Positions 725 to 32,735 of a stretch of DNA of 64,000 bases are shown piece by piece; position 1 is the first letter of the stretch; each line of letters starts with the position of its first letter. The position numbers were made by a program, and so were the translations under genes. The notes under the pieces were generated by a model. It worked only from the letters and a program-made list of their open reading frames with translations, had not been told where the DNA came from and did not search any database. The stretch is from positions 130,887-194,886 of the forward strand of contig JAFLBZ010000004.1 of NCBI GenBank assembly GCA_017303715.1, given 5' to 3'. The DNA is from Rhodothermia bacterium (GTDB lineage: Bacteria; Bacteroidota; Rhodothermia; Rhodothermales; UBA2364).

Positions 725-1740
725 ATTTCCTCTTCCATTTTGGCATTTATCACGCTGCCAATCACCAAGGGGGATTCGCCAGTCGTTTTCAGCATGTTCA
801 TAACGGCTTCGACGTTTTTTTGGGCAACCATTGCCACCAAACCGATGCCCAGATTAAAAGTCCGCCTCATGTCCTCTTCAGGAACCTCACCTACCGATTG
901 AATAAGGGCATAAATAGGGGGCCGTTCCCATGCCTGCCAATTCACCTGCAAGTTAAGACCTTCTGGCACAACGCGCATGGTGTTTTCAACCAATCCACCG
1001 CCTGTTACATGCGAAAAGGCGTGTGCCATTTTGGTTTTGCATAACATCTGAATCGGGGAAAGATAGGAACGGTGAATATCTAAGAGTACTTCGCCCACCA
1101 TCCGACCTTCTAGTTCCACCGGTGTATCCATTATGGAAAAACGTTCAAACAAGACTTTTCTTGCTAAAGAGTAGCCATTGGTATGCAGCCCTGTAGAGGG
1201 CAAACCGATCAATACATCCCCAGCAGCTACACGGCTCCCATCCAAAATATCGGCCCGATCTACCATGCCCACAATGGTTCCGGCCAAGTCGTACTCTCCC
1301 TTGGCATACAAGTCTGGCATCTCGGCAGTCTCCCCGCCAATCAATGCACAGCCATTTTCCCGACAAGCCTGCGTAAACCCACGTACCACTTGTTCTGCAA
1401 CATTTGGATCTAACGCACCAGTCGAAAAATAATCCATAAAAAACAAGGGTTTGGCTCCACAAACGGCGATGTCATTGACGCAATGGTTAACAAGGTCTTG
1501 CCCCACCGTATCGTGACGTCCCATCATAAAAGCCACCTTTAGTTTAGTCCCAACACCATCTACCGAAGAGACCAAGACCGGTTCATCATAGGCTGCAAAA
1601 TCAGGTTTAAAAAAAGCCCCAAAGGCACCAATATCCGCCAATACACTGGGCGTAAACGTACTCCGGAGCATTGGTTTAATGCGGTTTACGGTCTCATTTC
1701 CGGCATCTATGTTCACGCCGGCATCTTGATAGGTCGTCAT
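721..1740 (-). CDS. purM: Phosphoribosylformylglycinamidine cyclo-ligase (AIR synthetase)
   Basis: ATP-dependent ring closure of FGAM to aminoimidazole ribonucleotide, step five of purine biosynthesis. The 339-aa length is normal for the family. Recognisable PurM segments are [13 protein letters not shown] at about residues 59-71, the [12 protein letters not shown] segment near 94-105, [11 protein letters not shown] near 135-145, and a glycine-rich HVTGGG loop. The stop overlaps the gpsA start by four bases, so purine synthesis and glycerol-phosphate synthesis genes are co-transcribed here. Another purine gene, purE, is elsewhere in the window, so the pathway genes are scattered. Confidence 0.96.
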
Positions 1741-1850
1741 ATTTGGGATTTTAGGTTATCAAAACAAGAAAATACGATTCGTAATGAGGACGGTGTGAGA
1801 CTCTTCTATAAATACACCTGAATAGACGTTTAATGATAGAGTCCCATCAT

Positions 1851-1885
1851 AAAAAAAGCCTTGATCACAGTTGGAACAAGGCTTT
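1851..1885 (-). terminator. Intrinsic terminator after the T9SS-sorted small protein
   Basis: A nine-base-pair perfect stem (AAAGCCTTG at 1855-1863 with CAAGGCTTT at 1877-1885) separated by a 13-nt loop. Read on the minus strand it is followed by a run of Ts (complement of the A-run 1851-1857). It lies 20 bases past the stop of the gene ending at 1906 and separates it from purM. Confidence 0.8.
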
Positions 1886-1905
1886 GCAATAAACACAAAT
1901 ACACG

Positions 1906-2289
1906 CTATTTCATCAGCAGCATTTGGCGGGTAACCTTCCCTGAGCGGGTCTCAAGGCTGTAAAAATACACGCCACTTGGCAAATCGCCCGCATTAAACT
2001 TCACCTCATGAACGCCGGCATCCAACGTTTCGTCTTTTAGGGTCGAAACGACCTTCCCCAAAATATTGTAAACATTTACCTTCGCATATTGTTTGGTTTT
2101 CAACTCAAAACGGATAACCGTGGAAGGATTAAATGGATTGGGAAAATTTTGATACAATGTAAAGGACTTTGGCTGGTCACTCGTGGCCGCTTGGAGGTCG
2201 TCATAGGATTTATAAGGCAACTTAGCGCCCAGCGCAACAGACGAAGCCATGATTAAGCCAAAAATATAGCCAAGGAATCTTTTTTGCAT
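1906..2289 (-). CDS. Very short secreted protein consisting mainly of a T9SS type A C-terminal sorting domain
   Basis: From the internal Met at 2289 the 127-residue protein begins with a signal peptide (MQKRFLGYIFGLIMASSVAL). After only about 30 residues it enters a canonical Por-type sorting domain: YQNFPNPFNPSTVIRFEL, then VYNILGKVV, LDAGVHEVKFNAGDLPSGVYFY and the terminal KVTRQMLLMK. The longer frame (13 more residues) would bury the signal peptide, so the Met at 2289 is preferred. Family knowledge says such domains target cargo through the type IX secretion system and are cleaved at the surface. Here almost no cargo precedes the domain, so the function is unknown. A terminator follows. 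Confidence 0.85.
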   Translation of the reverse strand: MQKRFLGYIFGLIMASSVALGAKLPYKSYDDLQAATSDQPKSFTLYQNFPNPFNPSTVIRFELKTKQYAKVNVYNILGKVVSTLKDETLDAGVHEVKFNAGDLPSGVYFYSLETRSGKVTRQMLLMK

Positions 2290-2372
2290 AAAATACACCC
2301 TTGAAGGTGGATAAATAGAAAATCTCAAAAAGAAATATAAACAACTTTTAGGCCAAAAACCAATTTTAAACG

Positions 2373-2723
2373 CTACCAGTCAAAACTTTTTCGATCATTG
2401 GTGCTTTTTGGAGAAGAGATCACCAGGTAGCGAACATCCTTCCCCGATTCATTCCGGAATTGATGATAGGTCTTGGGCGGGATTTCGACACCTTCCCCGG
2501 CATGTAACACAAAATCGTCATGCTCGATGGATACCGTCGCTTCCCCTTCTATCACGTAGAGATATTGGCGAGATTGATGGTGCATATGCCGGATTTCCGC
2601 ATTCCCCGGTGGCGCAATTTCTTCCACCACGCTAAGGTGTGGGTTATCTACCAACCACCAACCTTTTGCATTTTCGCCCCATAGGTAAGACTTTGCATTT
2701 TTTTGACTTATGGGCTGTTTCAT
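2373..2723 (-). CDS. Small cupin-domain protein
   Basis: A 116-aa single-domain cupin. Motif 1 is seen as the cluster around EIRHMHHQSRQYLYVIEGEA (about residues 43-62, with His ligands and Glu) and motif 2 as GEGVEIPPKTYHQFRN (about 76-91). Length and single cupin fold suggest a metal-binding small-molecule enzyme, isomerase or sensor domain; the substrate cannot be inferred. It lies 20 bases past the LytTR regulator stop, on the same strand, and could be the last gene of the kinase-regulator operon. No signal peptide, so cytoplasmic. Confidence 0.8.
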   Translation of the reverse strand: MKQPISQKNAKSYLWGENAKGWWLVDNPHLSVVEEIAPPGNAEIRHMHHQSRQYLYVIEGEATVSIEHDDFVLHAGEGVEIPPKTYHQFRNESGKDVRYLVISSPKSTNDRKSFDW

Positions 2724-2742
2724 AACGTATTTCTCCCTTCCC

Positions 2743-3444
2743 TTATAACGTTTTAAGTCTTTTCAGCAATAGGTCTTTATAAGATGCCCCAATAGGAATA
2801 ACCGACCGCTCAATCACAATAGATGAATCCGCAATGTCCACAATTTTATCTATTCGTACAATGTAGGAGCGGTGTACCCGTGAGAAGGCATTAGAAGGTA
2901 ATTTCTCTTCAAAACCTTTAATGGTTCCATGCACCACATAATTTTCTTTCAGCGTATGAATGCGGACATAATCACCTTGCGCTTCGATCCATTGAATATC
3001 TGTCAACGCCAGTTTTACAAGACGTCCTTCTGTTTTTATGAACACGTAGTCTTGATCGGGGTCAGTGGCATCTTTTTGGGGTTTTAGCTTTGATTGTGCG
3101 CGTTGAACGGCTTTTAGGAAGCGGGCATACTTGACGGGCTTCACCATGTAATCCGTAACTTCAACATCAAATGCTTGAACGGCATAATGCTCTTTTGCAC
3201 TAACCAAGATAACCATAGGGCGGGTCTCAAGGCTCTGGATAAATTCTAAACCTGTCATTTCTGGCATCTCGACATCTAAAAAGATCAACTCCACAGGTTG
3301 TTTTTTCAGGACATTGGCGGCCTGAATAGCAGACTCACAACTGGCAACCAATTCGAGGTCTGCGATTTGCGAGATATAATGCTCCATGAGCATTCTGGCC
3401 ATATCGTCGTCGTCAACTAATAAACAGCGCATATGCTTGTCCAA
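2743..3444 (-). CDS. LytTR-family response regulator
   Basis: 233-aa transcriptional regulator. Receiver domain residues 1-120: acidic cluster DDDD at 11-14, phospho-acceptor Asp57 in the FLDVEMPEMTG segment, conserved Ser in ILVSAKEHY and Lys in YMVKPVKYARF. A LytTR DNA-binding domain covers about 135-233 (KTEGRLVKLALTDIQWIEAQGDYVRIHT, then FSRVHRSYIV, typical of the family). The hybrid histidine kinase immediately upstream (83 bases away, same strand) is the probable partner. LytTR proteins usually bind tandem imperfect repeats; I did not identify the target. Met5 is an alternative start. Confidence 0.92.
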   Translation of the reverse strand: MDKHMRCLLVDDDDMARMLMEHYISQIADLELVASCESAIQAANVLKKQPVELIFLDVEMPEMTGLEFIQSLETRPMVILVSAKEHYAVQAFDVEVTDYMVKPVKYARFLKAVQRAQSKLKPQKDATDPDQDYVFIKTEGRLVKLALTDIQWIEAQGDYVRIHTLKENYVVHGTIKGFEEKLPSNAFSRVHRSYIVRIDKIVDIADSSIVIERSVIPIGASYKDLLLKRLKTL

Positions 3445-3527
3445 AAAAAATCGGTAATAAGGAAAACAAGATAGGATTTAAGCCCATCAACATCAAACGA
3501 ATCTCAAAAAAACACGCCACATTTTTT

Positions 3528-6251
3528 CTATTGTGCCAGTTTACTTCTGTGCAGCTTCAACTCGGCCAAGGCTTGATCCACCAAGGAGACAATAAACTGC
3601 ATTCGTCCATCTTGTGGGGACATGGTTTTCCCCTCGGCCAAATCATGTTCTAAGGTATCTAAGGTTTGGGCAAGCGCTTCAATGCCAATCATACGGGCGG
3701 ATGATTTCATTTTATGGGCAATAAACTTAACTTGTCCAAAGTTTCCACGCCGCCAAAACTCGGTTAATTCATGAATTTGCTCTGGCGTCTGCATCAAAAA
3801 AAGGTCTATTACCCGAACCACAAATGCTTTATTTCCTAATGAATGATCCAAAAGTTGTTGGATGTTCACCGAATTTGCAGGGAGCGAATCGCCATTGGGA
3901 ACGGTTGGTTTAATTTCAATTTCCAGTGTTTGAGGAGCTACCAATGGCGCAACGGGCTTTTCTTTGTCCGGTGCTTTATTGGATACAACGGGGGCTTGTG
4001 CAACCGCTTGAGCCATAGAGCGGGACTTGTTGTCGGGTTGGAAACTTGGCGCTTTTGCCCATTGGATGGTTTCCGGAATGGGTTCGATCACCAATTTTTG
4101 AGGGCTTAGCGTTGTTTCTACAGACGAGGGAGAAGGCTGCATTGGCTGCCTATTGGCCTGTGCCTTTTTCCAATGCAAGACCAAAACCTTCCGTAGGTGC
4201 GCAGGTTCAAAAGGCTTTAGGACAAAATCGTTCATGCCTGCCTCAAAGACCTGCGTGCGGTTTTCGGCCAGCATAGAAGCCGTTAGCGCAATAATAGGCA
4301 ACTCGGCAGCAGAACGTTTGAGGGTTTGGCGGATGTATTTGGTTGCATCAATCCCATCCATCCCCGGCATCTGAATGTCCATCAAAACCAAATCAAAAGT
4401 ATTTTCACGGACTTTTTCGATCGCAATAAGCCCACTTTCCGCGACATCAACAGTCGCACCCCATTTGGTCAACATTTGATGTGCTACAAATTGATTCATG
4501 TTATTGTCTTCTACCACAAGAATTCGGACATTCAGTAAACTTTGGTCAATTTCCGTATTTTCATTTTCCGCAGAGGCTGCTACCGTTTGATCCGATACAA
4601 GGAAGGGCAACAACACATTGAAGACCGTTCCTTGGTTCACTTCACTTATAACCTCAATTTCGCCCCCTTGTTGGGAAACCAACTCTTTGACGATGGCAAG
4701 CCCAAGCCCAGTTCCGCCATATTTCCGCGTGGTATCAGAGGCCGCTTGGCTAAAGCTATCAAAAATATGCGATAGTTTTTCGGAAGGGATGCCTATGCCC
4801 GTATCTTCGACGGCAAAGGCCAAGGTCACTTTCCCATCCACCACCGACATTGCCTTAACCTTGAGTTTAACTTCTCCTTTCTCGGTAAATTTAATGGCAT
4901 TTCCAATCAAATTTAACAATATTTGCCTCAACCGAACTTGATCCCCAACCACGCTTTGTGGCAAGTTCTCATCTGGTATGATGTGGAGCTTAAGCCCTTT
5001 ACGTTCTGCCGTAAACCGAAGCATGGCATATAACCCCTTAAACAATTCGTCTAAGCGGAATGGGACTTCCTCAAAGTCAATTTTCCCCGCATCTATTTTC
5101 GCAAAATCCAGAATATCATTAATCAATGCCAGCAAGGATCCGGCGGAAAACTGGATGGCCTCTAAGTACCGCGATTGCTGCCGCGTCAGGCTTGTTTCCT
5201 CAAGCAAATGCGTCAATCCAATAACGGCATTAAGAGGTGTGCGCATCTCATGGCTCATATTCGCCAAGAACCGCTCTTTGGAACGGATGGACTGCTCGGC
5301 AATGTCGTTCACACGGATCAACTCGGCCTCAGACCTTTTTCTTTCCGTAATATCGCGTAGGTAAGCCGTGAACAAATATCGCTCATCGTTCTCGATGGGC
5401 GTAATGGCCAATTCTACAGGAAAAGACGTGCCATTTTTATGCACCGCTTGCATTTCCATATGGCGACCTAAAACAGGCCCTTGCCCTGTTCGTATATAAT
5501 TAAAAATCCCTGCCCTTAACACTTCTCGGTGCTCTGGAATTAACAACTCTTCGGCCAAAGATTGGCCTAAAATCTCGTTTTTGGTGTATCCGAAAGTCCG
5601 CTCGGCTGCCGGATTAAATTCCAAAATCCTTGCAGATTCGTCTATGGTGACAATCGCATCTAATGCAGATTCTAAGATGGCGGATTTCCGCGTCTCACTT
5701 TCCTTTAAGCGCTGCGTGCTGCGTTGGCGATCCTCAAATTCTTGTAACAAAGTACGGTGCGCAAGTGTCCTCTTCACCGATTCGCCAAACTGCGCAACAA
5801 GCGGCGCAAGTTGGTTCAGTTCTCGCGTATAAAAAGGAAGACGACGTTTAGCATCATACAATTTTAAAAATCCCAGATTCTCTAAACGAAAAACAGCAAA
5901 CGCACCTTCGGGGTAATGGATGTCTTCCGTAATCATTTCCTGAAAAGCGGGGTCTTCACTGGAAATACTCCAAAAAGCGGATTCCTGTGTTCGCGTCACC
6001 AATATATGGTCATCTGACAAAACGCCTTTGGTGAGTCGGATTTTAGGCTCGGCATATAAAAGCTCGTAGCGCCTTACGTCTCCCACCTGCTTTTCAATCC
6101 AAACAGAAACGACATCCAGATGTTTGCGCGAAATGAGCTTCTCGACAAAAGCGGAACAATTTGCCTGCACATCCAATGTAGTCCCTACCGAGAGCGATAT
6201 CTCGTAGAGCGTGGCCAAATCTTGTGCGATGTCGAAGCCTGAAAACTGCAT
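3528..6251 (-). CDS. Hybrid sensor histidine kinase (GAF-like, PAS, HisKA, HATPase, REC, HPt)
   Basis: 907-aa soluble phosphorelay kinase with no membrane segment. Order seen: an N-terminal GAF-like sensor (about 1-170); a PAS domain (190-310) ending in the usual YLRDITERKR; HisKA with His334 in FLANMSHEMRTPLN; HATPase_c with N-box QILLNLIGNAIKF, G1 VEDTGIGIP and G2 GGTGLGLAIVKEL; a receiver domain with Asp625 in LVLMDIQMPGMDG; a proline-rich linker (about 700-790); and a C-terminal HPt domain with His846 in FIAHKMKSSARMIG. It therefore contains all His-Asp-His relay steps in one chain, and the LytTR regulator next door supplies the final Asp. Signal unknown. Confidence 0.94.
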   Translation of the reverse strand: MQFSGFDIAQDLATLYEISLSVGTTLDVQANCSAFVEKLISRKHLDVVSVWIEKQVGDVRRYELLYAEPKIRLTKGVLSDDHILVTRTQESAFWSISSEDPAFQEMITEDIHYPEGAFAVFRLENLGFLKLYDAKRRLPFYTRELNQLAPLVAQFGESVKRTLAHRTLLQEFEDRQRSTQRLKESETRKSAILESALDAIVTIDESARILEFNPAAERTFGYTKNEILGQSLAEELLIPEHREVLRAGIFNYIRTGQGPVLGRHMEMQAVHKNGTSFPVELAITPIENDERYLFTAYLRDITERKRSEAELIRVNDIAEQSIRSKERFLANMSHEMRTPLNAVIGLTHLLEETSLTRQQSRYLEAIQFSAGSLLALINDILDFAKIDAGKIDFEEVPFRLDELFKGLYAMLRFTAERKGLKLHIIPDENLPQSVVGDQVRLRQILLNLIGNAIKFTEKGEVKLKVKAMSVVDGKVTLAFAVEDTGIGIPSEKLSHIFDSFSQAASDTTRKYGGTGLGLAIVKELVSQQGGEIEVISEVNQGTVFNVLLPFLVSDQTVAASAENENTEIDQSLLNVRILVVEDNNMNQFVAHQMLTKWGATVDVAESGLIAIEKVRENTFDLVLMDIQMPGMDGIDATKYIRQTLKRSAAELPIIALTASMLAENRTQVFEAGMNDFVLKPFEPAHLRKVLVLHWKKAQANRQPMQPSPSSVETTLSPQKLVIEPIPETIQWAKAPSFQPDNKSRSMAQAVAQAPVVSNKAPDKEKPVAPLVAPQTLEIEIKPTVPNGDSLPANSVNIQQLLDHSLGNKAFVVRVIDLFLMQTPEQIHELTEFWRRGNFGQVKFIAHKMKSSARMIGIEALAQTLDTLEHDLAEGKTMSPQDGRMQFIVSLVDQALAELKLHRSKLAQ

Positions 6252-24541: not shown

Positions 24542-26143
24542 ATGAGCGATAATTTAGCATTAGAAAAAACCCTTTGGCAAGCAGCCGACAAACTCCGCAA
24601 CAACATGGATGCGGCAGAGTACAAACATGTTGTGTTGGGCTTGATTTTCTTGAAATATATTTCAGATGCTTTTGATGAACTCTATCAACAATTAGACGCA
24701 AACAAAAACGAAACAGGCGCCGACCCGGAAGACAAAGACGAATTCACTGCCGAAAGAGTATTCTACGTGCCACCGCAAGCTCGTTGGAAATGGCTACAAG
24801 GCAGAGCGAAACTACCAACTATCGGCAAGGACATTGACGATGCAATGGATAGTCTTGAACGAGACAATGCGTCTTTAAAAGGCGTTTTGCCAAAAGACTA
24901 CGCCCGGCCTGCACTCGACAAACAACGACTCGGTGAACTCATTGACCTGATTGGCTCAATCACCTTAAGCAAAGGCGGAGACGGGAAAGGCAAAGACGTT
25001 TTGGGATTTGTGTTTGAGTATTTCTTGGGGCAGTTCGCAGATGCTGAAGGCAAAAAAGGCGGACAATTTTATACCCCTGCCAGCATTGTAAAACTCTTGG
25101 TGGAAATGCTTGCCCCCGAAGCCGAAAAACGGGTGTATGACGGCTGTTGCGGAAGTGGTGGCATGTTTGTGCAAAGCGAAAAATTCATAGAACTGCACGA
25201 ACACCGCAAAGGCAAGATTTCCATTTTCGGACAAGAAAGCAATCCGACCACTTACAAGTTGGCAAAAATGAACCTCGCTATCCGTGGCATTGATGCCAAA
25301 ATAGAGTTAGGCGACACTTTAATGAACGACAAGTTCCCTGAACTGAAAGTAGATTACATCATTGCCAATCCGCCTTTCAACATCAGCGATTACAACATCA
25401 ATAAAGCCGAAACCCATAAATGGAAATATGGCGTTCCGCCAACGGGAAACGCCAACTATGCTTGGCTGCAACACTTTGTGAGCAAACTTGCACCTTTCGG
25501 AACGGCAGGAATTGTTTTGGCAAACGGCAGTATGAGTTCTGAAATAGCCACCGAAGGTGAAATCAGAAAAGCCATGATTGAAGCCGACTTGGTGGATTGT
25601 ATGGTGTCGCTGCCTTCGCAGTTGTTTTACAATACCCAAATTCCCGCTTGTTTGTGGTTTTTGGCTCGCAACAAAACCGAAACCACCAAATTCCGAAACC
25701 GAACCAACGAAGTACTTTTTATTGATGCTCGTGAATTTGGCTCAATGATTAGCCGAAAACAAAAGGAACTGAGTGATGAAGACATTGCCAAAATTTCAGA
25801 CACTTACCACCGATGGAGAAAATGTCTGAACCTTGATTCACTTGATAAAAATGATTTAAAAAGGGATAAATCAAGCCAATTATTTAATCAAAAAGATCAT
25901 ATTTCAGACTATTTTGACATTCCCGGCTTCTGCAAATCTGCCACTATCGAAGACATCCGCAAAAACAATTACATCCTGACCCCTGGGCGATACATTGACT
26001 TTAAAGAAGTGGAAGAAGACGGACAAGCATTTGAGGAGAAAATGCAGATGCTCACTTCTACTCTTTCAGAGCAAATGAAAAAAGCAAACGAGTTGGATGA
26101 AGCGATAAAAGTGAATCTTAAAAAAATCGGATTTGAACTATGA
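24542..26143 (+). CDS. hsdM: Type I restriction-modification DNA methyltransferase subunit
   Basis: 533-aa N6-adenine methyltransferase. The N-terminal HsdM helical domain ([20 protein letters not shown] and [18 protein letters not shown]) is followed by the S-adenosylmethionine motif [12 protein letters not shown] (about 197-208), the [20 protein letters not shown] block, and the adenine-methylation motif [13 protein letters not shown] (about 273-285). Methylates the host recognition sequence with HsdS, and forms the restriction complex with HsdR. The C-terminal coiled region (about 470-533) probably contacts HsdS. Its stop overlaps the next ATG by four bases, so it is translationally coupled to the HepT-like gene. 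Confidence 0.95.
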
Positions 26144-26556
26144 GCGAACACGACATCAGGTGGCAGCAACGCTTCGATAATTTCTTAAAAGCCTTTGCCC
26201 TTTTGGAAAAAGCGGTTTTGCAGCACCAAGAAAGCGGGCTTTCGGAGTTGGAAGAACAAGGGCTTATTCAACGCTTTGAATTTACCCACGAACTGGCTTG
26301 GAACGTACTCAAAGATTACTTTGAATATCAGGGCAACACAAATATTACCGGCTCAAGAGATGCCACACGCGAAGCTTTTAACAAAGGGCTTATTGAGGAT
26401 GGCGAAGGCTGGATGGAAATGATAAAAAGCCGCAACAAATCATCACACACCTACAATGAAGACACCGCAAAAGAAGTCGTTCAACATGTCACCGAATGGT
26501 ACTACGATTTGTTTGTGGCGTTTAAAGCGAAAATGACTTCCCTAAAACTTCCATAA
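26140..26556 (+). CDS. HepT-like HEPN protein (nucleotidyltransferase substrate-binding family, HI0074-like)
   Basis: 138 aa, all-helical. Features of the HI0074/HepT group are [19 protein letters not shown] near the N terminus, [20 protein letters not shown], and the HEPN ribonuclease-type motif RNKSSHTY (R-x4-H-x-Y, about 106-113). Family knowledge: HepT is a HEPN RNase toxin silenced when the partner MNT nucleotidyltransferase AMPylates it next to this motif. The partner domain here is the N-terminal part of the next protein, which is fused to HsdS. The ATG overlaps the hsdM stop, so this toxin-like gene is built into the restriction operon. Confidence 0.87.
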
Positions 26557-26559
26557 ACC

Positions 26560-28185
26560 ATGTTCGGACTGCAGCAAAAACATATAGATGCGATCAACGC
26601 CTGCTTTGCCCAATACCCACAAATTGAGCAGGTGATACTTTATGGCTCACGGGCAAAAGGCAATTACAAAAACGGCTCCGACATAGACCTGACCATAGTG
26701 GGGGATTTGGACTACAATAGCTTGCTGAAATTAGAAAATCAATTGGACGACCTGCTCCTGCCCTATAAAATGGATCTCTCGCTAAAACATAAAATTACCA
26801 ACCCGGATTTGTTGAATCATATTGAGCGGGTGGGGAAGGTGTTTTATGAGAAGGCAATCGAAAAGGTGTTAAGCAAGCCTGATGCAGCGTATGGAAAACC
26901 AAGCGAGTGGAAAACATATAAGTTGGGGGAATTGATACACTTAGTTGGGGGTGGGACACCAAAAACTACTGTTCCAGAATATTGGAATGGAGAAATTCCG
27001 TGGCTTTCTGTTGTTGATTTCGGAAAAGGACTTAAAAAAGTTTACCAAACCGAAAAATCCATAACCGAAAAAGGGCTTAATGAAAGCAGCACTAAAATTT
27101 TGAAGGAAGGACAAATCATTATTTCTGCCCGTGGAACTGTTGGAGAATTAGCAGTCTTAGGCAGAGATATGGCATTTAACCAATCGTGTTATGGTATTTA
27201 TGCCAATGAAAAAACAGAGAACAATTTTCTTTACTATCTTCTTAAATACAGCATTGTCAAGATTAAGAAAAACACCCACGGGGCTGTGTTCGATACAATC
27301 ACAAAACAAACTTTTGACAATATAGAAGTTTCAATCCCTGAGAGTAAAGAAACCCAAAACCAAATCGCCGCCATCCTCTCCTCCCTCGACGACAAAATAG
27401 CACTCAACCTACAAATGAACCAAACGTTGGAAGCCATGGCTCAGGCCATTTTCAAGGAGTGGTTTGTCAATCTCAACTTCCCCAAAAGTCTGAACCTTGA
27501 TTCATTTGATTTGCCTGATTTACATGATTTAAAGAATCAGGACAATCAAGAAAACCCCAAAAATCACAGTTCAGACAATGGACTGCCGAAGGGGTGGAGA
27601 ATGGGTCCCATTAGAGAATTAATAGATGTGCAAAATGGTTACGCTTTCAAAAGCGGTGATTTTCTTGAAAAAGGCAATAATGGTGTAATAAAAATTAAAA
27701 ACATTTCTAATAATGTAGTTGACATAGTCAATATGCAATTCGTTTCTGATGAAGTTGCTAAAAGCATCGGCAGTCGCTTCAAGGTCAAAAGTGCCGATTT
27801 ACTTATTGCAATGACTGGTGCAGAAGTTGGTAAAGTTGGCATTGTGCCAAACACTGAAAAGAAACTTTGGTTAAATCAGCGAGTAGGCTCTTTTAAGGAA
27901 AAAATTAATTACGCAAAGTGGTTTGTTTATTTGATACTTTCTACAAAAGAATATCAAAACGTATTACTGAGTTCTGCAAGCGGAAGTGCACAGCCAAATA
28001 TTAGTGCAGCACAAATTGAAAGTGTAGAGACATTAATCCCAACTCACAATTTCATTGAAAATTTCGGAGAAATTGTGAACCCAATATTTGAAAAGATTTT
28101 AGATAATTTCAAACAAAACGAAGTTTTAACCCAACTCCGCGACACCCTTCTCCCCAAGTTAATGAGCGGACAAATTAAACTTTAA
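26560..28185 (+). CDS. hsdS: Fusion of MNT-type nucleotidyltransferase with type I specificity subunit HsdS
   Basis: 541 aa in one uninterrupted frame. Residues 1-100 are a minimal nucleotidyltransferase: VILYGSRAKGNYKNGSDIDL (G-S-x-A-x-G ... S-D-x-D-L, about 25-44). Residues about 115-541 are HsdS: TRD1 (EWKTYKLGELIHLVGGGTPK), a central conserved helix (QIAAILSSLDDKIALNLQMNQ), TRD2 (GWRMGPIRELIDVQNGYAFK) and the distal helix (NEVLTQLRDTLLPKLMSGQI). No Met lies between the end of the MNT domain and the first TRD, so a separate internal HsdS start is unlikely. Combined with the upstream HEPN gene, this puts an MNT/HEPN toxin-antitoxin pair inside the specificity subunit. Confidence 0.9.
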   Translation: MFGLQQKHIDAINACFAQYPQIEQVILYGSRAKGNYKNGSDIDLTIVGDLDYNSLLKLENQLDDLLLPYKMDLSLKHKITNPDLLNHIERVGKVFYEKAIEKVLSKPDAAYGKPSEWKTYKLGELIHLVGGGTPKTTVPEYWNGEIPWLSVVDFGKGLKKVYQTEKSITEKGLNESSTKILKEGQIIISARGTVGELAVLGRDMAFNQSCYGIYANEKTENNFLYYLLKYSIVKIKKNTHGAVFDTITKQTFDNIEVSIPESKETQNQIAAILSSLDDKIALNLQMNQTLEAMAQAIFKEWFVNLNFPKSLNLDSFDLPDLHDLKNQDNQENPKNHSSDNGLPKGWRMGPIRELIDVQNGYAFKSGDFLEKGNNGVIKIKNISNNVVDIVNMQFVSDEVAKSIGSRFKVKSADLLIAMTGAEVGKVGIVPNTEKKLWLNQRVGSFKEKINYAKWFVYLILSTKEYQNVLLSSASGSAQPNISAAQIESVETLIPTHNFIENFGEIVNPIFEKILDNFKQNEVLTQLRDTLLPKLMSGQIKL

Positions 28186-28190
28186 AGGCT

Positions 28191-29141
28191 ATGATAAACA
28201 CCATTGAAATTTTTGAAGCGGACAACCGCCAGATTGAAGTTAGGATGTCGTCGGACACCGTATGGTTGACGCAAGCTCAGATGTCGGCTTTATTTGAGCG
28301 AGACCAGTCCGTCATTTCCCGACACATTCGGAATGTGTTTGCAGAGGGCGAATTGGAAGAAAAAAGCAATATGCAAAATTTGCATATTGCAAATTCCGAC
28401 AAGCCCGTAGCGTTTTACAACCTCGACGTCATCATCTCTGTCGGTTACCGCGTGAAATCGCAGCGCGGCACCCAGTTCCGCCAATGGGCTACGCAGCGGC
28501 TCAAAGACTACTTGGTGCAGGGCTACGCCCTCAACCAAAAACGCCTTGAGGAATTGGGCAAAATGGTGCAGCTCATTGAGCAGTCGGGCGGCAGCGCAAG
28601 CCTCCAACTTGGCGAGGCCAAGGGGTTACTGGAGATTTTGAGCGGCTACACCCGCAGTTTTGTGCTGCTCAATCAGTACGACAGCCATAACCTGCCCTCA
28701 GCGCCTTTTAACCCCAATGTTACCTACGAAATAGCGTACGACGAGGCCAGTACCGCCATTGCCGAACTCAAAAAGCAACTCATCGCCAAAAAAGAAGCCA
28801 CCGAACTGTTCGGCAACGAAAAAGACGACAGTTTTTCAGGCATTTTGGGCAATATTGTACAAACCTTTGGCGGGCAATATCTTTACCCCAGCATAGAGGA
28901 GCAAGCCGCCCATCTGCTCTACTTTGTCATCAAAAACCACCCGTTCACCGACGGCAATAAGCGGATCGGCGCGTTCCTTTTTGTCTGGTTTTTGGAAAAA
29001 AACAAACACGCCCTGAAACCCTCGGGCGAACTTAAAATCAACGACAACGCCCTGACTGCTCTGGCGCTGCTCGTAGCCCAAAGCGATCCCGCCGAAAAAG
29101 AACTGATGATCCGATTAGTCTGCAACCTTATCAATGCGTAA
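28191..29141 (+). CDS. RhuM-Fic fusion protein
   Basis: 316 aa. N-terminal RhuM domain (about 1-115): VWLTQAQMSALFERDQSVIS and KPVAFYNLDVIISVGYRVKS, followed by FRQWATQRLKDYLVQGYALN. C-terminal Fic/Doc domain (about 140-316) with active-site motif HPFTDGNKRIGAFLF, the HPFxxGNxRxG signature in the K-containing Doc-like form. Fic proteins transfer AMP or another nucleotide moiety to proteins, or phosphorylate them in Doc. RhuM-Fic genes often sit inside type I restriction operons. It begins six bases after hsdS and ends immediately before the hsdR ATG. Target unknown. Confidence 0.9.
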   Translation: MINTIEIFEADNRQIEVRMSSDTVWLTQAQMSALFERDQSVISRHIRNVFAEGELEEKSNMQNLHIANSDKPVAFYNLDVIISVGYRVKSQRGTQFRQWATQRLKDYLVQGYALNQKRLEELGKMVQLIEQSGGSASLQLGEAKGLLEILSGYTRSFVLLNQYDSHNLPSAPFNPNVTYEIAYDEASTAIAELKKQLIAKKEATELFGNEKDDSFSGILGNIVQTFGGQYLYPSIEEQAAHLLYFVIKNHPFTDGNKRIGAFLFVWFLEKNKHALKPSGELKINDNALTALALLVAQSDPAEKELMIRLVCNLINA

Positions 29142-32100
29142 ATGAGAAACAGCATCACCGAAAACGAAATAGAAGATATTGCCCTTTCCTACTTGCAGGA
29201 CTTGGGATATTCCGCCCTATTGGGCACGGTGATTTCACCAGATGGTGAGCACCCCGAAAGGCAATACAACGAAGTGGTGTTGCTTACCCGTCTGCGTGAT
29301 GCCATAGACAAACTCAATCCCACCCTTTCGCAAGATGCCAAAGAAGATGCCCTGAAAAAAGTATTGCGTACCGAAAGCCCCAATGCCTTAATCAACAATG
29401 AAAACTTTCACCGCTACCTGACCGATGGCGTAGATGTGGAAGTAAGAACCGATAGCGGCATTCGTGGCGAGAAAATTTATATCGTTGATTTTGAAAATCC
29501 TGAAAACAACGAGTTTTTAGCCATCAACCAGTTTACGGTGGTGGAAGGCAACCAAAACAAACGCCCCGATATTATCCTATTTGTCAACGGCTTGCCTTTG
29601 GTGGTGATAGAACTCAAAAATGCGGTGGACGAAAACGCCAACCTGAAATCGGCATTCAACCAACTGCAAACCTACAAACAAGCCATTCCTTCGCTGTTCA
29701 CTTACAACAGTTTGCTCATCATCAGCGATGGGTGGGATGCCCGTTGTGGCACCGTCACCAGCGATTTCGGTAGGTTCATGACGTGGAAGACTCCGCCCTC
29801 AACCCCAACCCTTCTCCCACGGGGAGAAGGGAGCAGCTATCGTGGAAATCTTAAATATTCAGGGTTAATCGAAGAAGCCCGTGAATTAAGGAAAAAGCAA
29901 ACCAAAGCAGAAGAAATCTTTTGGCAATTGGTACGCAATAGAAAATTCAATAATCTCAAATTCAGAAGACAGCACCAGATTGGAAATTATATTGCGGATT
30001 TTTATTGCGATGAGTATAGGTTAGTGATTGAATTTGATGGTGAAATTCACAATTCAACAGAACAACAAAAACACGATAGTAAAAGAGATAAATTCTTGAG
30101 CAGTTCAGGGTTTAAGGTGATTAGATTTAAGAATGAAGAATTGCTAAACGCTCCAGATTCAGTTTTTGAAAAAATCGATAGGGCAATTTTAGGTAATTCA
30201 CAAAAAGTCAATAGCTCCTCTCCCACTGGGAGAAGCGGGGGTGAGGGATTACTTGAAATGGAAGTGATGTTTCACGGAATGTTGAACAAACACACACTAT
30301 TGGATTTAATCCGTCAGTTTATTGTCTTTGAAAAAACAGGTAGTGATGTTGCATGCAGCGTTTCTAAAAAGATAGCCGCCTATCATCAATATTATGCAGT
30401 AAATAAAGCCGTAGAAAGCACCGTAACCGCCAGCGGGCGCCATGGCGACAGGCGTGGCGGTGTCATCTGGCACACACAGGGCAGCGGCAAAAGTTTGAGT
30501 ATGGTTTTCTTTTCCGGCAAGCTCATCATTGAACCGAGAATGGAAAACCCCACCTTGGTTATCCTGACCGACCGTAACGATTTGGACGAGCAACTGCACG
30601 AAACCTTTACCAATTGCCAGCAACTTTTAAGGCAAGAACCCCAAAAAGCCGAAGACCGAAAAGATTTAAGAAAATTACTGAAAGTGGCATCAGGTGGCAT
30701 TGTGTTTACTACCATCCAGAAGTTTATGCCCGTTAGGGCTGACCTGCATATCAGCCCTGATGACAATGTGCTAAACGAACCGGCAGTAGAATACATCGGT
30801 GCAGATATACAAGCATTGAGCGAACGCAAAAACATTGTAGTTATTGCAGATGAAGCCCACAGAAGCCAATATGATTTCATAGATGGCTTTGCCAAACATT
30901 TGCGCGATGCACTGCCCAATGCCACCTTTATAGGCTTCACGGGTACCCCCATTGAAACCACCGACAAAAACACCCAAGCCGTTTTCGGCAACTATGTCGA
31001 TATTTACGACATACAGCAAGCCGTAGAAGATAAAGCCACCGTTCCGATTTTCTATGAAAGCCGTTTGGCCAAAGTACATTTTGCAGACGAGGAGAAAGTA
31101 ACCATAGATGAGCAGTTTGAAGAACTCACAGAGGGCGAAGAATTAAGCAGCCGCCAACAGATGCGTGCAAAATGGACACGCTTGGAAGCGATTGTGGGCA
31201 ACCCCAACCGGCTACAAAAAATTGCCGAAGATTTGATCTATCACTTCGAGCAGCGAAACGCCGTATTGGAAGGTAAAGCCATGATAGTTTGTATGAGCCG
31301 TAGAATTTGCGTTGAACTCTATGATGCCATTATCCGAATTCGTCCGCTTTGGCATTCAGATGATGACGATAAAGGTACTATCAAAGTAATCATGACGGGC
31401 AGCAGCAGCGACGTCCTGAATATGCAATCCCATATTCGCAACAAACCCAGAAGAAAAGCCATAGGCGACCGTTTGAAAAATCCGAACGACCCATTGAAAT
31501 TGGTCATTGTTCGGGATATGTGGCTTACAGGCTTTGATGCCCCTTGTTTGCATACGCTGTATGTGGACAAGCCCATGCGTGGACACAACCTGATGCAAGC
31601 CATAGCACGGGTAAACCGCGTATTTACCGAAGGCAAAGAAGGCGGTTTGGTCGTGGACTATTTAGGTATAGCACAAGAACTGAAAACAGCCTTAGCCGAC
31701 TACACGGCAAGCGGTGGCGAAGGCAAACCCACACTGGATCAGGAATTGGCAGTTGCCAAAATGTTGGAACTGCACGAAGCAATAGACTACCAGTTAAGGC
31801 ATTTTGATTGGCGTAAATTCTTCACACTTACACCCGAAGAAAAACTGAAATTCATTCCTGTCATCGTGGATTACATTTTCAGTCAGGAAAACGGAGAGCA
31901 GAGTTTCACGGAAAACACCAAAAACCTGTTGAAAGCCTTTGCGATTTCCGTTCCCCACGAACGGGCAATGGCCATCCGTGATGATGTGGCCTTGTTCCAA
32001 GCCATCAAATCACGGTTGGTGAAAATATCCGACAGAAACGAAGGCGGTAAAACGGACGAAGAAATGGAAACCGCCATCAAGCAAATCATTTCAGAAGCCA

Positions 32101-32735
32101 TCACAGCCGACAATGTGATAGACATTTTTGATGCCGCAGGACTGAAAAAGCCCAACATTGAAATTCTTGATGAACGCTTTTTGCAAGAACTAAAAGACTT
32201 ACCCCAAAAGAACTTAGCTGTTGAGTTATTGAAAAAATTACTCAAAGACGAAATCAAAAAGCGGACAAAAATAAACTTGGTAGAAAGCAAGAAGTTTTCC
32301 GAAATGTTAGAAGATGCCATCAAACGCTATCACAACGGAATGATTGACGCGGTAGAGTTTTTGGAAAAAGTGCTTATTCCTTTTGCCGAGCAAATGAAAG
32401 AAGCCGATAAACGTGGTGAGAAATTGGGCTTGGATGACAGAGAATATGCCTTTTATACGGCTTTGGAAGTAAACAACAGTGCCGTAGCTGTATTAGGTGA
32501 CGACATACTCAGACATATTGCACAGGAACTTTTAAAGACCGTCCGCAACAGCACAACCATTGATTGGACAATTAAGGAAAGTGTTCAATCTGCTTTAAGA
32601 CGAAACATCAGACGAATTTTACGACTGCACGGCTATCCGCCCGACTTACAAGAAAAAGCAGTTGATACCGTAATCACCCAAGCAAAAATGTTAGCAGAAG
32701 ATATAGTGATGAATGGAGACAAAACAGAACAATAA
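29142..32735 (+). CDS. hsdR: Type I restriction endonuclease subunit with inserted DUF559 nuclease domain
   Basis: 1197 aa, longer than most HsdR (about 1000-1080) because of an insertion. The N-terminal PD-(D/E)xK nuclease is intact: [10 protein letters not shown] (about 141) and VVIELKNA (about 155). The DEAD-like motor has Walker [12 protein letters not shown] (near 446), DEAH in [12 protein letters not shown] (near 569), and GFTGTPIE. The C-terminal helical domain runs to 1197. At about 218-369, between nuclease and motor, a complete DUF559/Vsr-like nuclease domain is inserted in frame. The subunit translocates DNA and cuts unmodified DNA remote from the site. It is the last gene of the operon; the start ATG follows the RhuM-Fic stop directly. 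Confidence 0.93.
29796..29840 (+). repeat. Left inverted terminal repeat of the DUF559 insertion
   Basis: Starts CCCTCAACCCC and contains the hairpin CTTCTCCCACGGGGAGAAG (29811-29829), then GGAGCAGCTAT. It aligns with the reverse complement of 30211-30247 over most of its length (CCCTCA, CTTCTCCCA, GGGAGA, GGAGC and CTAT blocks shared). Confidence 0.7.
30211..30247 (-). repeat. Right inverted terminal repeat of the DUF559 insertion
   Basis: On the minus strand reads CCCTCACCCCCGCTTCTCCC followed by AGTGGGAGAGGAGCTAT, matching the left repeat with small gaps. It contains its own short palindrome (TCTCCCACTGGGAGA). It codes for the Ser/Gly-rich exit linker in HsdR. Confidence 0.7.

Follow-up and report, generated by a model that had tools for sequence, protein, structure and literature searches.

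An in-frame DUF559 nuclease insert in the hsdR gene of a Rhodothermia bacterium as a probable member of a widespread family of homing-like elements

How did a gene for a type I restriction subunit come to hold a second, complete nuclease domain in its middle and still remain readable from end to end? The question is raised by an hsdR gene of a Rhodothermia bacterium (GCA_017303715.1), located in the stretch of 64,000 nucleotides of contig JAFLBZ010000004.1 that was analysed here as a whole and is referred to below as the window. The gene (29142..32735, plus strand; 1197 aa) belongs to a type I restriction-modification operon, is open across all of its 1197 codons and matches TIGR00348 (hsdR) with E 5e-185. 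Pfam assigned HSDR_N to aa 5-209, SWI2_SNF2 to aa 415-670 and, furthermore, T1RH-like_C; between the first two lies PF04480 (DUF559) at aa 244-348 (E 8e-36), complete and in frame, which is the order that the preliminary description of this locus had claimed. The DUF559 match covers positions 5-107 of the 109 of the profile and scored 122.7 bits against a curated cut-off of 20.6. The nuclease domain, supported by hmmsearch, conservation, AlphaFold2 and fold match, occupies 29868..30176 on the plus strand (HsdR aa 243-345). Both host segments are intact: the upstream one (29142..29791, plus strand) encodes the HSDR_N nuclease domain, whose RPD and E.K residues are invariant across 29 HsdRs, and the downstream one (30256..32735, plus strand) encodes the motor and C-terminal domains, with the Walker A motif HTQGSGKS and DEAH preserved.

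The open frame is accompanied by an absence of any sign of splicing, in agreement with the earlier proposal of an in-frame element that is neither intron nor intein. No Rfam match was obtained at E<=1 in 29000-31000, neither the window HsdR nor the other hosts scanned with Pfam contained an intein/Hint family, and the ends of the insert, PPSTPT.. and ..GEGLLE, lack on inspection by eye the usual intein junction residues. An assembly artefact was also considered and dropped, as many independent genomes show the pattern.

The extent of the insert was defined by alignment with insert-free relatives, 80 HsdR relatives having been found by a genome scan. In the nearest of them (L033, L034, L059, L064 and L052, approximately 85-90% identical at the DNA level) the site is empty and is taken by a linker of 13 aa from 38 nt, KDGQTTADHLQPQ or nearly so; this HsdR subfamily thus does not carry DUF559 as a fixed component. 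These relatives aligned in blastn to nt 1-650 and 1115-3591 of the window hsdR with 38 nt between, which sets the junctions at 29792..30255 (plus strand), where 464 nt stand in place of the 38 nt of host linker with the frame preserved. The flanking HsdR had been described as uninterrupted, and this is correct for the open frame and the intact host domains and incorrect for the linker, which was replaced. No target-site duplication was seen against the empty-site hsdRs, the comparison being of a single event at this site in which 38 nt were replaced. It should be added that in a HsdR of Cloacimonetes (L086) the window's site holds a repetitive Gly/Ser-rich insert without DUF559.

The insert is bordered by a pair of inverted palindromic arms. 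The best inverted match was between 29796-29834 and 30214-30247, with a score of 34, whereas 2000 dinucleotide shuffles of the flanks gave at most 27 (p<0.0005). The 5' terminal arm (29796..29834, plus strand) is composed of a C-rich tail and the hairpin CCCTTCTCCC-acg-GGGAGAAGGG at 29809-29831, and the 3' terminal arm (30214..30247, plus strand) of the hairpin CTCTCCCACTGGGAGAAG at 30218-30235 and the tail CGGGGGTGAGGG. The 3' arm is inverted relative to the 5' arm and both tails are directed outward, reading on their outward strands GGGGTTGAGGG (5' arm, minus strand) and GGGGGTGAGGG (3' arm, plus strand); in translation the arms yield peptides of 12 and 11 residues, correspondingly. The inverted repeats of about 37-45 bp reported at first are therefore real, with corrected lengths of 39 and 34 nt and an imperfect match. 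In its own genome the window palindrome has no further copies, there is one clear DUF559 copy, and RAYT (NF047646) has no match at E<=1e-10, on account of which the window hsdR probably arrived already with its insert, or the insert arrived once; a RAYT could have been left behind during horizontal transfer. As both the palindrome and DUF559 are single in this genome, the evidence on mobility comes from other genomes.

Among the HsdR relatives, L045 is 93-94% identical to the window protein and is empty at the window's site. It carries, at a second site immediately upstream of Walker A and with other palindromes, a different DUF559, 41% identical to that of the window, and on sequence comparison the two inserts represent independent events in near-identical hsdR alleles. 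At this second site L124 carries an insert that is 79% identical to the window's, the HsdR hosts being only 50-61% identical; the insert likewise exceeds the host in similarity between L045 and L166 (83% versus 61-64%) and in the L014-L045 pair. Since insert identity is above host identity, HsdR inserts and their hosts have separate histories, and the simplest reading of these sequences is that the inserts move between hosts. The window's site (site 1) was seen with DUF559 in the window only, and a copy of one HsdR-site-2 lineage appears to have moved here, to an hsdR site new to it, directly behind the conserved ..GRFMTWK. It should also be added that the same-genus hsdR of L014 (G001:C74), a locus including unread stretches shown as X, has, apart from its DUF559 at site 2, a solo palindrome-like peptide STGGVVEDRGG further downstream.

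DUF559 is found far beyond hsdR, in 162 of the 394 genomes of the phylum. The 132 unique loci that we collected comprise best-scoring matches and HsdR relatives and do not constitute a random sample; 52 of them are in ORFs of at least 297 aa, most with host-gene sequence on both sides. Within the proteins scanned, Pfam confirmed as hosts MetH, LeuRS (at two sites), RecG, two UvrD-like helicases, an MM-CoA-type mutase with MeaB, HisF, HemF, HemD, HsdM, Eco57I/type ISP (type IIG) enzymes, RNase H, an M23 peptidase and N-formylglutamate amidohydrolase. In HisF, HemF, RNase H, HemD and the amidohydrolase the domain is terminal, and such cases may be simple fusions, the internal cases being the strong ones. 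Mapped onto solved structures, the insert of LeuRS site 1 lies between residues 236 and 237 of Thermus thermophilus LeuRS (1h3n), and that of MetH in the linker 752-771 of 9ssp, before the B12 domain. Internal sites tend to adjoin strongly conserved motifs, according to sequences read by eye: FTTRPDT in LeuRS, TVKGDVHDIGKN in MetH, HTQGSGKS in HsdR and DEQHRFGV/MTATPIPRT in RecG; inteins likewise sit beside strongly conserved motifs. In other groups 13 of the 33 genomes reached through HsdR loci contained DUF559, with inserts in HsdS from three phyla, namely in Binatia, Nitrospira and Chlorobiota, and in HsdM of Nitrospira.

Two observations on LeuRS may be given here. The beta-turn of site 1 also holds in relatives other short in-frame inserts, e.g. 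IASETKQSH in L284, and so may admit small repeat elements in general. At site 2, L266 and L293 have a solo palindrome-coded peptide, EEFENSSPSGRLGG, and L153, L157 and L162 have DUF559, so that one and the same site occurs empty, with a solo palindrome and loaded.

The arms recur together with the nuclease. To measure them, the 250 nt flanking the domain on each side were searched for the best inverted match between them, scores of at least 30 being taken as strong. Strong inverted arms were present at 57.6% of 125 DUF559 loci versus 5.1% of mismatched pairs (Wilcoxon p 2e-18), approximately 40% of the loci having no strong inverted pair by this measure, and in the other groups the values were 62% versus 8% of controls. 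The terminal repeats are therefore not peculiar to the window: the architecture predicted for other DUF559 loci is there, with a repeat sequence that differs from one to another. Direct matches between the flanks were likewise frequent, because the units are themselves palindromic; of 42 loci with a tailed hairpin that could be oriented on both sides, 31 had inverted pairs. On the genome-wide scale the pattern CCCCTCCN0-8GGAGGGG, picked after the arms were known, had a mean of 6.18 per DUF559-positive genome against 0.64 in others (within-family permutation p=0.0005), in counts that include the arms of the DUF559 copies, and the reversed control pattern gave 0.10 and 0.09, correspondingly. Genomes G331 and G068 have 85 and 58 palindromes, far beyond what three or four DUF559 copies could supply.

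Such numbers bring up an alternative in which the palindrome pair is a REPIN or MITE moved by RAYT (TnpA-REP) or another transposase, DUF559 is passive cargo and the in-frame copies are survivors of random insertion. The arms do resemble REP hairpins, and REP/RAYT systems consist of dispersed hairpin units that, as DUF559 arms, often form inverted pairs (PMC8266576). Genome G331 has five RAYT matches next to three DUF559 copies, and many of its palindromes are paired about 100 bp apart in a hairpin-tail...tail-hairpin layout, as in some DUF559 arms. REP/RAYT systems are, however, tied to TnpA-REP (PMC8266576), whereas for the palindromes studied here DUF559 is the stronger genome-wide correlate, their mean being 3.69 in genomes with DUF559 and without RAYT and 0.80 in those with RAYT and without DUF559; co-occurrence of RAYT with DUF559 is weak (OR 2.6). 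Tags at the hairpin foot, counted in arms of many loci, were at chance level both for GTAG (3/140, expected 2.7) and for CGTC (10/140, expected 8.8). Moreover, random insertion does not predict lineages fixed to one position of MetH, LeuRS, RecG or HsdR (see below), and the window's own genome is without a RAYT match. We consider this explanation unlikely for the cassettes; RAYT may be the mover of the solo palindromes. The latter are not claimed to be generally intragenic, as none of the 16 examined in G331 was inside a gene by the criterion applied; intragenic solo copies are present at LeuRS site 2.

The distribution of inserts over hosts is more readily understood as homing-like behaviour. 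In a tree of 129 DUF559 domains, calculated like the other domain trees from approximately 103 columns and with many open forks, the domain sorts by host site, with 26 label changes versus 52 in shuffled data and none of 200 shuffles as low. The site groups are those of MetH (eight, plus one M23), RecG, LeuRS site 1 and LeuRS site 2 with the mutase, and two separate HsdR lineages; both of the latter occupy the same region before Walker A, and the window copy belongs to one of them and is at a different site. The carriers are, furthermore, scattered over the host lineages. In one genus 27 of 29 readable MetH alleles have a linker of 20-21 aa and two have DUF559. On the tree of 57 MetH hosts, composed of the genus alleles, of loci partly picked for long frames and of neighbours, the strong branches require seven changes or more, and a single clade of carriers is rejected (p=0.0002), with the carrier L328 falling among the empties L222-L224 on very short branches. 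In LeuRS site 1, where the empty state is a turn of 15 aa, nine carriers require eight changes and one clade is rejected with p=2e-11. These p values should be read with regard to the host trees, which were quick and have some long branches, and to the carrier groups, which were named after a first look. Earlier, both a homing-like and a transposon-like element had been envisaged; a homing-like one is favoured because DUF559 sorts by host site and scattered host lineages are occupied at the same site.

The same data bear on a further alternative, namely one ancient insertion per host site followed by vertical inheritance and many losses, with little or no mobility today. In pairs from MetH, LeuRS, RecG and the mutase, insert identity follows host identity and in most cases does not exceed it, and in the vertical-looking pairs of the mutase, LeuRS site 2 and RecG the insert is less similar; these identities fit vertical descent over short distances, the MetH insert tree roughly matches the two main host groups, and no clear signal of co-conversion tracts was found near MetH inserts. 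This explanation has nevertheless to face the rejection of a single clade for both MetH and LeuRS and the cross-host movement in the hsdR data. In addition, the MetH empties have in common a conserved linker end that is missing in carriers, which favours gains over precise losses, such a reversion being hard without recombination with an empty allele; that recombination would also restore the linker end. We therefore hold the ancient-insertion explanation for distinctly improbable, and host-gene transfer and loss via recombination with empty alleles may contribute to the scatter.

The nuclease itself is well conserved. Over 129 DUF559 domains the residues E257, D286, E297, D299, H303 and D312 are 98-100% conserved, and the conserved residues of the window domain include in addition W261, Q277 and R315; the match of catalytic-type residues to the EDxHD/Vsr-like class is one of presence, rather than of residue-level alignment to I-Bth0305I. 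DUF559 is under purifying selection, with median dN/dS, for pairs with estimable dS, of 0.14 for in-frame and 0.10 for stand-alone domains. The AlphaFold2 model of the window domain (pLDDT 87.6) was compared with 3hrl, an uncharacterised DUF559-type protein (Z 15.8), with the I-Bth0305I catalytic domain 3r3p (Z 11.8 over 95 residues) and with Vsr 1cw0 (Z 9.8); the predicted fold is thus of the I-Bth0305I/Vsr type, a common fold not being proof of function. The predicted structure of full-length HsdR was poor over the insert, where alignment rows are few. The nuclease unit has approximately 105 aa and short extensions, with no separate DNA-binding domain apparent. That DUF559 is a useful accessory domain kept by function, e.g. 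as an extra restriction nuclease, and is not selfish would agree with the strong purifying selection, with its frequency in restriction-modification proteins and with the cellular role proposed for a Vsr-like DUF559 protein (PMC12907096), but is very improbable given that inserts of this type also occur in enzymes of metabolism and tRNA charging, where a nuclease is of no obvious use, and given the patchy presence within one genus, the terminal inverted arms and two separate lineages at the same HsdR site.

We therefore regard it as probable that the window insert is one representative of a family of homing-like elements that is widespread and that spares its hosts by in-frame insertion into tolerant loops. 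The element would comprise the DUF559 nuclease ORF and two inverted REP-like arms, each a hairpin plus G-tail, with the frame open from arm to arm. It would enter a surface loop or interdomain linker, often beside a highly conserved catalytic motif, and, being translated together with the host protein as an additional domain, would need no splicing, with the host protein presumably still working. We infer that the nuclease drives the movement: it would cleave the uninserted allele, into which repair would copy the cassette, with the arms as putative sites of recognition or recombination. The solo palindromes may be non-autonomous relatives of these elements. More tentatively, and with somewhat less than even confidence, we suggest that DUF559 cassettes represent a third lifestyle of homing endonucleases beside introns and inteins, that of in-frame passenger domains whose arms double as protein linkers and as sites of recombination or cleavage and whose non-autonomous offspring are the untagged REP-like palindromes.

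Parts of this scheme have known parallels. A DUF559 gene has already been placed in the EDxHD family (PMC9403480), and EDxHD/Vsr-like homing endonucleases such as I-Bth0305I have in common with DUF559 the catalytic fold, the kind of invariant residues (E, D, ExD, H, D) and the tendency to occupy, time and again, a fixed site in conserved genes. I-Bth0305I belongs to a group I intron and has additional DNA-binding parts (PMC3943268), whereas the DUF559 nuclease forms one domain within its host protein, with no intron or intein and with inverted palindromes at the borders. The nearest working analogues are WHO elements of yeasts and the intragenic REPs and Rickettsia palindromic elements. WHO elements home into FBA1 without splicing, with cleavage shown experimentally; their backbone is associated with FBA1, and transpositions have taken them to other loci (PMC7282813). 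They thus resemble DUF559 cassettes in homing to a protein gene without splicing and with the host gene kept, cleavage being presumed for DUF559; they differ in replacing the 3' end of FBA1 and in their intein-like family, whereas the DUF559 insertion is internal and in frame and the nuclease unrelated. Intragenic REPs and Rickettsia palindromic elements are short in-frame palindromes in many unrelated genes, including those of DNA repair (PMC3733652). The intragenic REPs described there are GTAG- or CGTC-tagged, with no nuclease described and the tagged CGTC class reported without an enzyme (PMC3733652), whereas DUF559 arms show no excess of tags and bracket a nuclease ORF. In the open-access literature, as judged mostly by title and abstract, no description of DUF559 in-frame elements was found, and none of the open-access papers naming DUF559 also contained the term 'inverted repeat'.

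According to a review of 2014, the link to self-splicing sequences frees homing endonucleases to invade conserved genes (PMC3943268). The DUF559 family appears to invade conserved, essential genes, such as those of leucyl-tRNA synthetase and methionine synthase, without splicing and across several phyla. It would, moreover, give the untagged REP-like palindromes a candidate enzyme and account for the puzzling presence of nuclease domains within LeuRS, MetH and RecG. The inserts would also serve as natural examples of protein positions that tolerate a whole extra domain.

It should finally be added that the genes preceding hsdR in the window have features of their own. A small ORF at 26140-26556 resembles by eye the HI0074-type partner of a minimal nucleotidyltransferase, and the first approximately 100 aa of the following ORF (26560-28185) resemble such a nucleotidyltransferase fused to HsdS, the specificity-subunit matches in this ORF beginning at aa 115. 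Between hsdS and hsdR, at 28191-29141, lies a gene matching the PADLOC candidate PDC-S23 with E 2e-132.
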